Virus record (IMG/VR): IMGVR_UViG_3300027844_001993
Coordinates: 1-21,390 of that record
Direction: 5' to 3' (one strand)
Length of the DNA stretch: 21,390 bases
Source: a virus
The notes beneath the pieces were generated by a model. That model worked only from the letters and a program-made list of their open reading frames with translations, did not search any database and was not told the origin of the DNA. The position numbers and the translations under genes are program-made. Every line of letters begins with the position of its first letter. Position 1 is the first letter of the stretch. Of this stretch, positions 15,844 to 19,420 are shown in pieces.

Positions 15844-16494
15844 ATGCCAGATGCCGGACCCTTTAATCCAGATAGCTTTTTAAATAAAGCAGATAATCTT
15901 GGTGGACTTGCTAAAAATAGTAGATTTTCTGTTTCAATTACTCCTCCCACAAAACTAGTCACCGGAAATCGGGCTGAGGTTTGGTCTTTCCTTTGTAGAA
16001 GCGCAGAAATTCCAGCAATGGCTCAACAGACAACAGAAGATAGGATTTATGGTATAGAAGTTATGAAGCCATACGGTGTTACATTTGAACCTGTGACTTT
16101 AAGTTTTTTTAATACTAATGATTTTTCTCCACGTAAATTTTGGGAAGATTGGTTAGATCATATTCAACCAGCAAAATCAAGGAATATGGCATATTATGAT
16201 GATATGGTTGGAGACATAAAAATATATCATTATTCAGATCACGCGAAGCAACCGGTACCCTCTTATGAAAATTATTATTGCCAGCTCATAGAAGCTTGGC
16301 CACTTTCTATAGGAGAATCAGAACTCGACTGGGAACAAGATGAGGTTAATGGTGCAGCTTTTGATGTTCAACTACAATATAAATATTGGACGAGAAGTGA
16401 CGGACCCGGATCAAGCTCAAGCGGCGGATCCACAAGAGTGGATCCTAACAAGACCTACGAGCAGAACTATGGACGGGGTAATCCTCATCTTTAA
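15844..16494 (+). CDS. Tail-tube-fold protein (gp19-like or gp54-type tube initiator)
   Basis: The 216-aa protein has the pattern of T4 tail tube proteins: FSVSITPP, then WSFLCRSAEIPAMAQQTTED, YGVTFEPVTLSFFNTNDFSP, KFWEDWLDHIQP, NYYCQLIEAWPLSIGESELD and FDVQLQYKYW. T4 gp19 shows FQVEISY, FQCKATALPA, WTVTVMND, FVDWQ, LWPTNVGELQLDW and FEVTLALDYWE in the same order. A Ser/Gly-rich tail of about 35 residues (DGPGSSSSGGSTRVDPNK) extends beyond the fold. gp19 itself is normally encoded beside the sheath gene gp18, which is not seen here, so this copy beside hub-assembly genes may be the gp54-type initiator that shares the same barrel. The start has a good ribosome site (GAAGGA, 7 nt). Confidence 0.75.
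   Translation: MPDAGPFNPDSFLNKADNLGGLAKNSRFSVSITPPTKLVTGNRAEVWSFLCRSAEIPAMAQQTTEDRIYGIEVMKPYGVTFEPVTLSFFNTNDFSPRKFWEDWLDHIQPAKSRNMAYYDDMVGDIKIYHYSDHAKQPVPSYENYYCQLIEAWPLSIGESELDWEQDEVNGAAFDVQLQYKYWTRSDGPGSSSSGGSTRVDPNKTYEQNYGRGNPHL
16378..16385 (+). promoter_or_regulatory. Possible T4 late promoter core upstream of gp26
   Basis: TATAAATA on the plus strand lies inside the C-terminal coding part of the tube-fold gene, about 140 bp before gp26. T4 late promoters often lie inside the preceding gene. It is in the sense direction for gp26 and the tape-measure gene, but the octamer also occurs in antisense positions at 4897-4904 and 10588-10595, so chance is possible. Confidence 0.3.
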
Positions 16495-16523: not shown

Positions 16524-17255
16524 ATGTCTTTACCAAAAGTAGCAACGCCTACTTATGAATTGACAATCCCTTCTACGGGACAAAAAATTAAATACAGACC
16601 TTTTCTTGTAAAAGAAGAAAAGGTGTTAATGATGGCAGCTGAACAAGGAGGTGCACATATAACCAAAGCAATAAAAGATGTTTTGAATGCATGTTCAGAA
16701 AGTAAAGTTAATCTTAAAACCCTTGCACCATTTGATATTGAATATTTCTTTTTACAACTTAGAGGAAAGTCTGTTGGGGATCAAATATCAATTAGACTTA
16801 AAAAACCAGATTCAATAGAATGTGAAGAAGAAAATTGTGAACAACTCTGTACAGTAGACCTTAATGTTGCTGATATAGAAGTAGATACTTCCAAAGTAAG
16901 TAATGGTAAGATAAACATTACAAAAGATATTGGTATAAAATTAAAATATCCTGAACTTGATAACATGCAAAAATTTATTACTTCAGGTACAGACCCAACT
17001 GCTGATGAAATATTTAAATTAATTACTGAATCTATTGAATATATTTGGGAAGGTGAAGAGATATATAAGTCAAGAGATACCACTAAAACGGAATTAAATG
17101 ATTTTATCGAATCACTTAATTCAGAACAATTTGGTAGAATTAGAAGTTTTTTTGAAGATATGCCTAGACTGAGTAAAGATGTTCCATGGACATGTACTAA
17201 ATGTGGAAAATCTACGACAGTAACACTTCAGGGGATTGATTCTTTTTTCGGATAG
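16524..17255 (+). CDS. 26: Baseplate hub assembly protein gp26 (zero-frame product)
   Basis: The 243-aa protein fits the T4 gp26 baseplate family (T4 gp26 about 208 aa): PKVATPTYELTIPSTGQKIK, YRPFLVKEEKVLMMAAEQGG and FDIEYFFLQLRGKSVGD. gp26 is required to assemble the central hub and is not clearly a virion component. Five cysteines look like a metal site: Cys100, Cys105 and Cys109 (ECEEENCEQLC) and the C-terminal pair Cys224/Cys227 (WTCTKCGK). The ATG has an AGGAG ribosome site 7 nt upstream. The gene ends in GIDSFFG. Just before the stop, the sequence T TTT TTC allows a -1 shift into a 67-codon extension, giving a predicted 309-aa fusion spanning 16524-17452. This matches the tail assembly chaperone arrangement, in which the longer form helps load the tape-measure protein encoded next. 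Confidence 0.87.
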   Translation: MSLPKVATPTYELTIPSTGQKIKYRPFLVKEEKVLMMAAEQGGAHITKAIKDVLNACSESKVNLKTLAPFDIEYFFLQLRGKSVGDQISIRLKKPDSIECEEENCEQLCTVDLNVADIEVDTSKVSNGKINITKDIGIKLKYPELDNMQKFITSGTDPTADEIFKLITESIEYIWEGEEIYKSRDTTKTELNDFIESLNSEQFGRIRSFFEDMPRLSKDVPWTCTKCGKSTTVTLQGIDSFFG

Positions 17256-17312
17256 CGCTGAGTCATGACTCCTTGGCGAATCATTTTCAAACAAACTTCG
17301 CCATGATTCAGC
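17243..17312 (+). promoter_or_regulatory. Programmed -1 ribosomal frameshift signal in gp26
   Basis: The slippery heptamer T TTT TTC occupies 17243-17249 in the correct phase of the gp26 frame (codons TCT TTT TTC GGA TAG). After a 7-nt spacer, 17257-17267 (GCTGAGTCATG) pairs without mismatch to 17302-17312 (CATGATTCAGC): 11 bp with one G-U. Inside it, 17276-17280 (GCGAA) pairs with 17297-17301 (TTCGC), leaving an 8-nt bulge and a 16-nt loop. The bulged ACTCC (17268-17272) can also pair with GGAGT at 17322-17326, which would make a pseudoknot. Heptamer, spacer and structure together are the known layout of bacterial and phage -1 frameshift sites. Confidence 0.82.
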
Positions 17313-17452
17313 ATCACAAGTGGAGTCTTTATGATATTGAAAATATGACCCCTTTTGACAGACAAGTATATGTGTTATTATTACAACAATGGTTAAAAGA
17401 AGAAAACGCAAGAATTAATGAGCAAAATAGAAAAATGAAACAAGGTAAATAA
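17249..17452 (+). CDS. -1 frame extension of gp26 (tail assembly chaperone C-terminal domain, gp51 position)
   Basis: From the slip site the -1 frame is open for 67 codons: RIALSHDSLANHFQTNFAMI, QHHKWSLYDIENMTPFDRQV, YVLLLQQWLKEENARINEQN, then RKMKQGK and a TAA at 17450. The segment HHKWSLYDIENMTPFDRQVY is protein-like and resembles a short conserved protein found after gp26 in marine T4-like phages. An internal ATG at 17303 could start a 49-aa free protein, but no ribosome site precedes it and the sensible-looking SHDSLANHFQTNF stretch lies upstream of it, favouring production as a fusion to gp26. T4 places gene 51 (hub assembly catalyst, 249 aa) here, but this piece is far shorter and I do not claim homology. 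It ends 3 nt before the tape-measure ATG. Confidence 0.75.
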   Translation, partial: RIALSHDSLANHFQTNFAMIQHHKWSLYDIENMTPFDRQVYVLLLQQWLKEENARINEQNRKMKQGK

Positions 17453-17455
17453 TAA

Positions 17456-19420
17456 ATGGCGGAAACAGCACAAGACAAAAAACTAAGTGAAGTTAGTGAT
17501 AAACTTTCTAAACTGAATGGTACCACAGAAGTAGGTCTTGGTAATGTCCAAAATCTAACAGAAACTTTGGTTGCACAAAGTAGAGCATCATTAGAAGCAA
17601 CAGAATCAGCTGCAGCAGCAGAAACAGAATCTAGAAAAGAGGCCGCAAGGGCACGAAAAGATAAACTGGGTGTGACTGATGTTAATGTTCTGAATTGGCA
17701 AAAAGAAGATTCAGGAATGTTTGATACATTAGCCGATATGTTGGCTATGAAATTTGCTTGGGGTGGATTAGGTTTAGTTGGTCTGGGTGCAGCTGTCGTT
17801 GGCGCAATATCTGGTGCACTTATAGGAGCAAGTGCTGGATTAGTAACAGGTTTTCTAAGTATGTGGAAAGATATCTTCAAATTTTTTGGAAACATTCTTA
17901 GAGGGAAACTTGCTAGTATGTTTCCAAATGTTACTGCCACCCTGAAGAGCATTTTTGGTAAAGGTGGAAAAATTAGTCAATTTATTACCGCTATAAAAGC
18001 ATTCTTTACAGAAAGCAAAGTATTCAAAGCGATTTCAAATGCATTCATTAAATTAAAAACAATGCTAACAACTTTTGGAACAAAAATATCAAAATTTTTC
18101 TCTCCAATAACAAAACTTTTTGGTGGAGGTGGAGGGCCGATTAGTAAATTTTTCTCCACTTTTGGAAAATTCTTTAAAATATTTAGAACTTTTTTTGCTA
18201 GATTATTTTATCCCCTTCAAATCATTATTAGTCTTGTAGAAGGTTTCTTTGAAGCAAAAGATGCAGTTGGTAAGAGTAAAGGAATGATGGCAACATTCTT
18301 CAATGCAATCATTGGTTTCTTTGGTGGTATTCTTGATGGTCTGATTTTTGGAATGCTGGATCTGATCAAAGATGGTGTTTCTTGGATTGCAGGATTCTTA
18401 GGATTTGGAGATGTTGAAAAATTACTTGATAGTTTTTCTTTCTCCGATATGTTCAATGAATTTTTAGATGACATCTATGAATGGTTCAATCTCTTATTCA
18501 GCGATCCAGTTGCGGCGCTATCACAATATTTTAGCGCACTGTTTGGTGGGATGCTATCAATAGGAGATTTTATCGTTAACATGTATAAAAAACCACTTGT
18601 ATGGTTAATGAAATTGTTTGGATGGGATGATGCTGCAGAATCAACCGAAAACTTTTCCCTCAAAGAATGGGTCATGGGAAAATGGAAGGCTGTAAAAGAT
18701 TGGTTTACAGGATTATTATCTTGGGGTAAAGACGCAGGTGCTACAGAAGAAGGTGGATGGTCGTTCACAAAATTTATAGGTGAAGCATGGCAAAAAATTA
18801 AAGACTACTTCAAGAACCTACTAACCTTTGAGGGTGCCGGTGGAGAAAAGATTGGATTGGGTGACAAGATTATGGAATTATTTAAATCTATACCAGATAA
18901 AATAGTTCAGTTATTTAAAGATATGATTGCAAAGGTTCAACAAATATTCTCATCGATATCTATGCCTTGGGAAGATACACCTGAAGAAAAGCAGCAAAAG
19001 GGAAAAGAAATACAGTCAAAAATTAAAGAGCATCAAGTAGCACTGAAAGCCGGTGACACTAGGACCATGATGGGTTTTTCGCGTGAGGCTGAAATAAAAA
19101 AATTACAAGAAGAATTATCTGGTATACCGGGATTTGCAGAAGGTGGATTAGTCAAAGGAACTGGAATAGCTAAACTTCATGGAAGTCCAACTTCACCAGA
19201 ACTAGTTTTAGACAATCAGGCTGCAAGTCTTTTTATGCAAGCAGCCCAAATGCTTTCAAGTTTATATTTAGAAGGAACTCTTGTAAGAGCAGAAGCTTCA
19301 AGTGGAGGAAACGTATCAGTTGTAAATGCTCCTGCGACCACTATCAACAAATCGACATCCGGCATGATGATGGTGCCTCAAAGTATCCGACCTAATCCAC
19401 CTAATATACTTCCAGCTTAA
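17456..19420 (+). CDS. 29: Tail tape-measure protein (gp29 position)
   Basis: The 654-aa protein has tape-measure hallmarks: a polar, Ala/Glu-rich helical N-terminus (about 1-70), a long glycine/alanine hydrophobic segment (GGLGLVGLGAAVVGAISGAL, about 103-132), repeated aromatic amphipathic helices (ISKFFS occurs at about 211 and 229, with FGKFFKIFRTFFARLF after it), a second hydrophobic stretch (FFNAIIGFFGGILDGLIFGM, about 281-300) and the typical C-terminal motif GFAEGGLVKGTG followed by SPELVLDN. Such proteins fill the tube, set tail length and enter the host envelope. At about 1.5 angstrom per residue it would span roughly 98 nm, near T4's tail. It directly follows the frameshift gene pair, as in most long-tailed phages. 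AAGGT about 9 nt before the ATG is the only ribosome site. Confidence 0.85.
   Translation: MAETAQDKKLSEVSDKLSKLNGTTEVGLGNVQNLTETLVAQSRASLEATESAAAAETESRKEAARARKDKLGVTDVNVLNWQKEDSGMFDTLADMLAMKFAWGGLGLVGLGAAVVGAISGALIGASAGLVTGFLSMWKDIFKFFGNILRGKLASMFPNVTATLKSIFGKGGKISQFITAIKAFFTESKVFKAISNAFIKLKTMLTTFGTKISKFFSPITKLFGGGGGPISKFFSTFGKFFKIFRTFFARLFYPLQIIISLVEGFFEAKDAVGKSKGMMATFFNAIIGFFGGILDGLIFGMLDLIKDGVSWIAGFLGFGDVEKLLDSFSFSDMFNEFLDDIYEWFNLLFSDPVAALSQYFSALFGGMLSIGDFIVNMYKKPLVWLMKLFGWDDAAESTENFSLKEWVMGKWKAVKDWFTGLLSWGKDAGATEEGGWSFTKFIGEAWQKIKDYFKNLLTFEGAGGEKIGLGDKIMELFKSIPDKIVQLFKDMIAKVQQIFSSISMPWEDTPEEKQQKGKEIQSKIKEHQVALKAGDTRTMMGFSREAEIKKLQEELSGIPGFAEGGLVKGTGIAKLHGSPTSPELVLDNQAASLFMQAAQMLSSLYLEGTLVRAEASSGGNVSVVNAPATTINKSTSGMMMVPQSIRPNPPNILPA

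Follow-up and report, generated by a model that had tools for sequence, protein, structure and literature searches.

In the 21,390-nucleotide stretch of viral DNA analyzed here, which comes from a marine T4-like phage (the window; positions 1 to 21,390 of IMG/VR record IMGVR_UViG_3300027844_001993), gp26 and the open reading frame that follows it in the -1 frame very probably constitute a single gene, from which a genuine programmed -1 frameshift would produce a short and a long tail assembly chaperone. A preliminary description of this DNA had proposed that such a frameshift joins gp26 to a downstream extension, and the proposal is supported here by a conserved slip site, by selection on the -1 coding frame and by the lack of conservation of the ATG codon within the downstream frame.

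The gp26/extension gene and its surroundings

The gp26 gene (16524-17255, plus strand, as are the other features mapped below) starts at the ATG at 16524, which is preceded by an AGGAG motif, and ends at the TAG stop at 17253-17255. Its predicted product, the short tail assembly chaperone (TAC-N, 243 amino acids), matches PF12322 (E 5.3e-59) and phrog_150 (E 4.5e-65) and contains zinc-ribbon-like pairs of Cys residues. The extension (TAC-C, 'gp51'; 17249-17452), which comprises 67 codons and a TAA stop, matches phrog_634 (E 2.8e-26), and the product of the gene as a whole combines a PF12322 domain with a gp51-type C-terminal extension, as in the T4 gp26/gp51 family. The gene is located between that of the tail-tube protein directly upstream (15844-16494; phrog_45, E 4.8e-33) and that of a 654-residue tape-measure protein downstream (17456-19420; phrog_58, tail length tape measure, E 1.5e-9), which is the presumed client of the chaperones. 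A 10-bp perfect inverted repeat with a 7-nt loop is also found near the start of gp26 (16598-16624), and resembles a terminator when the minus strand is read.

Conservation of the slip site

The slippery heptamer T TTT TTC is found at 17243-17249 in the phase of gp26, with TTT in the P site and TTC in the A site, and is separated from the stem that follows by a 7-nt spacer (17250-17256) containing the 0-frame stop; both elements are as the preliminary description had read them. The motif TTTTTTC is in itself not rare in the AT-rich window (12 occurrences found versus 13.6 expected), and it is the conserved position and phase of the motif, rather than its mere occurrence, that go beyond chance. 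A second in-phase run within gp26 (TTTTTTT, 17147-17153) was considered as a frameshift site and rejected, as a ribosome slipping back there would meet a -1 stop while still within gp26, and as the run is lost in more distant relatives.

Conservation of the heptamer among gp26 relatives is borne out by two sets of IMG/VR loci, which have some contigs in common. In the first set (80 gp26 relatives, of which L046 ends at its contig end in this region), TTTTTT(C/T) is present in phase near the stop in 79/79 complete loci. The second set consists of 80 loci chosen by the extension alone, without regard to gp26 and the T run, and all 80 contain NNT TTT TTN with TTTTTT at offset 0 and an open upstream gp26 frame, the seventh base being C in 40 loci, T in 26 and A in 14. 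Addition of 14 isolates gave 92 representatives at <85% nucleotide identity, and NNT TTT TTN is found in 92/92 of these, with isolates having been admitted only if they carry the T run (the Vibrio phages VPALA and D494, which do not, lie outside the 92). Against a TTT usage of 70% for Phe, this corresponds to a log10 P of about -35 if the representatives are independent, a value that is overstated since it presumes that independence. In some loci the 0-frame stop is 31-34 nt downstream, and the slip site is unmoved relative to the extension.

As a point against the frameshift explanation, the canonical heptamer is missing from some distant relatives (VPALA, D494 and Ackermannviridae) in which the -1 frame is nevertheless open. 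The sequence (C/A)TT TTC is found in place of T TTT TTC in VPALA (L093, 3205-3229) and D494 (L094, 3061-3085), both of which have a homologous-looking extension, and also at the end of the gp26 CDS of three Ackermannviridae (L180-L182), together with an open -1 frame and a homologous-looking extension. The sequence (C/A)TT TTC is reminiscent of the T7-type GUUUUC slip. A search for relatives with VPALA gp26 as the query found none.

Coding in the -1 frame

Following a -1 slip, reading would resume with the codon CGG at 17249 and meet no stop until the TAA at 17450, which upholds the earlier reading of an open -1 frame and of products of 243 and 309 amino acids (242 + 67 = 309 for the fusion). 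The segment between the slip site and the first ATG of the downstream frame, which had been described as protein-like, shows purifying selection when read in the -1 frame, beginning right at the slip site: differences at codon positions 1, 2 and 3 are 0.27, 0.20 and 0.50, the ratio of synonymous to nonsynonymous change among 34 representatives is 1.83 in the -1 frame versus 0.24 in the 0 frame and 0.08 in the +1 frame, and no stop interrupts the -1 frame over this segment in any of the 34. This pattern of coding ahead of the ATG, together with the presence of the ATG in only 23/34 representatives, is what would be expected of a fusion rather than of a gene with a start of its own.

The extension had also been called hidden. 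The -1 coding is real, but the family has already been named, since phrog_634 is the 'baseplate hub assembly catalyst' family, which cyanophage records name gp51, usually in truncated form if it is annotated at all. In public records gp51 is given as a separate truncated gene of 30 amino acids in P-HM2, 44 in Mosig and 47 in Melnitz-3, and a gp51 gene is not listed in the records of ACG-2014j, S-WAM1, S-BM3, Aswh_1 and VH7D (loci with truncated or unlisted gp51: L082, L081, L096, L083, L097, L099, L091 and L090).

RNA structure downstream of the slip site

The preliminary description placed a fully paired 11-bp stem after the spacer. The 11 pairs are present (17257-17267/17302-17312), but because one of them is a G-U wobble (17262/17307), 'fully paired' is right only with wobble allowed. 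The minimum-energy fold is slightly different, being a bulged stem-loop of 16 pairs (17257-17312; 17257-17265/17304-17312 and 17274-17280/17297-17303) that is a putative stimulator of frameshifting. This fold has an energy of -20.1 kcal/mol (z -1.87, with 7/200 shuffled sequences as good), and a 68-nt segment at the stem (z -3.1) is more stable than all 15 of 15 control segments from gp26. The stem is conserved within the clade to which the window belongs, where 98.9% of pair cells are paired versus 23-45% when the pairing is slid; the variable pair at columns 33/60 passes from GC to GU to AU, and conservation at third-codon sites is 0.90 within the stem versus 0.72 outside it (p 0.006). Covariation is thin, amounting to one compensated pair, and because of this the case for the stem rests on third-site conservation and stability. 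A search of Rfam gave no match at E up to 1.

The bases of the 5-bp pseudoknot that had also been suggested (17268-17272/17322-17326) are indeed complementary, but the pairing lacks covariation support. It is left here as an unsupported candidate, with 90.9% of cells paired, no covariation, and a pair (columns 28/82) that breaks in 6/22 sequences.

Across the 92 representatives, the sequence that follows the slip site shows more structure than control segments do (p 2e-11). The same holds for the first 68 nt beyond the slip site in the 80 representatives outside the window's clade (mean z -1.75 versus -0.31 for controls, p 1e-9), although both p-values are optimistic because representatives share ancestry. 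Outside the clade the stems differ in both sequence and geometry (L053, L097 and L107, for example), and 28/80 representatives have virtually no stem. The stem is thus specific to the window's clade and the slip site general, with other lineages retaining the slip site but having different stems.

Alternative explanations

A separate small gene in the -1 frame would make the T run a coincidence, whether its translation began at an internal ATG or TTG or ribosomes terminated and reinitiated at the stop of gp26. Separate 'gp51' genes of 30-57 amino acids are indeed annotated in public records, and stop-start overlaps (TAATG or TGATG) occur in some distant relatives (PhiW-14, Marzo and Dickeya phiDP23.1). 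However, the window has no start codon near the gp26 stop, and the first ATG, at 17303, has no Shine-Dalgarno sequence, in agreement with the preliminary description; this ATG is not conserved, being absent from 11/34 representatives, the 18 codons ahead of it are under selection, and the position of the slip site is fixed, all of which make a separate gene very improbable. Slightly less credible still is the notion that the T run is kept only for a Phe-Phe pair at the end of gp26. The peptide GxxSFF is conserved in many members, but the run is retained where the second Phe is lost (TTT-TTA, Phe-Leu, in 14/80 extension-selected loci, and TTT-TTG in RHph_N34), which shows that selection is on the nucleotide run and not on the peptide. 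Furthermore, the wobble base of the preceding codon is T in all 92 representatives, with the first Phe never encoded by TTC, whereas the in-phase TTTTTTT at 17147-17153, which also codes for Phe, is present in close relatives and lost in more distant ones.

A narrower question, and one compatible with the core of the frameshift explanation, is whether the frameshift is real while the stem-loop has no role in it. In its favor, a strong stem is missing from several lineages that share the slip site (L074, L076 and Aswh_1). Against it stand the third-site conservation and pair-keeping changes within the stem and, outside the clade, the excess of structure immediately downstream of the slip site, and we regard an inert stem as unlikely, albeit to be taken more seriously than either of the preceding alternatives.

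Fold of the short form and proposed mechanism

A search of the PDB by sequence gave nothing useful. The structural model of gp26 (pLDDT 86), when compared with the PDB, has only four matches with Z of at least 5, namely 3fgx, Bacillus subtilis YqbN (3klu), the HK97 tail assembly chaperone gp13 (2ob9, which is titled as such in the PDB) and 5ir0; the first three score 8.4, 7.4 and 7.3, respectively, and the next, unrelated, match scores 2.3. YqbN is a tail-chaperone (XkdN) relative. Residues 1-94 of gp26 align with HK97 gp13 and YqbN (Z 7.3-8.4), but gp26 is longer by about 150 residues and sequence identity is 6-12%, and Foldseek E-values for the model are not significant (1.7 for HK97 gp13). 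The model points to a tail assembly chaperone-like fold for the gp26 N-domain, the resemblance being one of fold. The entry 5ir0 is ORF19 of a Vibrio cholerae PICI-like element. It aligns with residues 8-90 of the model (Z 5.0), in the domain to which the tail chaperones align as well, and is perhaps a satellite mimic. The extension is modeled as three helices, with a single weak PDB match (Z 2.5).

The tail chaperones G/GT of phage lambda and E/E' of phage P2 use a -1 frameshift just before the tape-measure gene. As in these systems, gp26 is a small gene flanked by tail-tube and tape-measure genes, with a predicted -1 shift close to its end that would give short and long forms, but its short form is 243 amino acids long with a zinc-ribbon-like segment; the likeness drawn here is one of arrangement. 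The analogy drawn in the preliminary description survives, with gene order, slip site and the chaperone-like fold of the gp26 model in agreement. In the proposed mechanism, most ribosomes would terminate at the TAG at 17253 and yield the short form. In a minority, with tRNA-Phe at T TTT TTC in both the P and the A site, the two tRNAs would move back by one base to pair with TTT TTT, assisted by the stem-loop 7 nt downstream, and translation would yield the 309-residue long form with its helical C-terminal domain. By analogy with lambda and P2, the two forms may then coat and hold the tape measure, encoded by the next gene, for assembly of the tail tube; slippage itself, its level, its stimulation by the stem and the action of the chaperones on the tape measure, including binding to it, are what we infer from these features.

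Relation to other T4-like phages

T4 genes 26 and 51 belong to the same families as the gene in the window (PF12322, phrog_150 and phrog_634), but T4 has one gene for the short form (gp26) and another, divergent one for the long form (gp51), where the window has a single gene with a -1 shift. T4 gp51 matches PF12322 (1-201), phrog_150 (3-248) and phrog_634 (147-246), and T4 gp26 corresponds to the short part alone; T4 gp51 joins these two parts in a natural fusion, and the frameshift would yield here what T4 encodes twice. Cyanophages and T4-like phages of Methylophilales and Pelagibacter (P-SSM5, P-HM2, Melnitz, Mosig) have the same poly-T heptamer and extension as the window, but their downstream stems differ, and gp51 is annotated as a truncated separate gene or missed.

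Vladimirov and colleagues reportedly found frameshifting to be conserved in several T4-like groups. Poly-T slip sites in the TAC-N genes of T4-like phages (as cited in PMC12846349), and separate short and long TAC genes in place of frameshifting in some of these phages (as cited in PMC10885494), are attributed to the same work (Vladimirov, Gautam and Davidson, 2022, Virology 566:9-15). Going by these attributions the kind of mechanism is already known and, as far as can be told from the citing papers, what is added here is the present clade with its stem, together with the breadth of the sampling.

The frameshift would account for the absence or truncation of gp51 in many records of marine T4-like phages, for which the right reading of gp26/gp51 would be one gene with two products. 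With evenly balanced confidence, we suggest that a fixed slip site runs through the T4-like phages and that lineages have exchanged one stimulating RNA structure for another, the ratio of short to long form being tuned by interchangeable stems, of which the bulged 16-pair stem-loop would be the local version. A fixed slip site with changing stems would amount to a natural experiment on frameshift stimulation outside the model phages.
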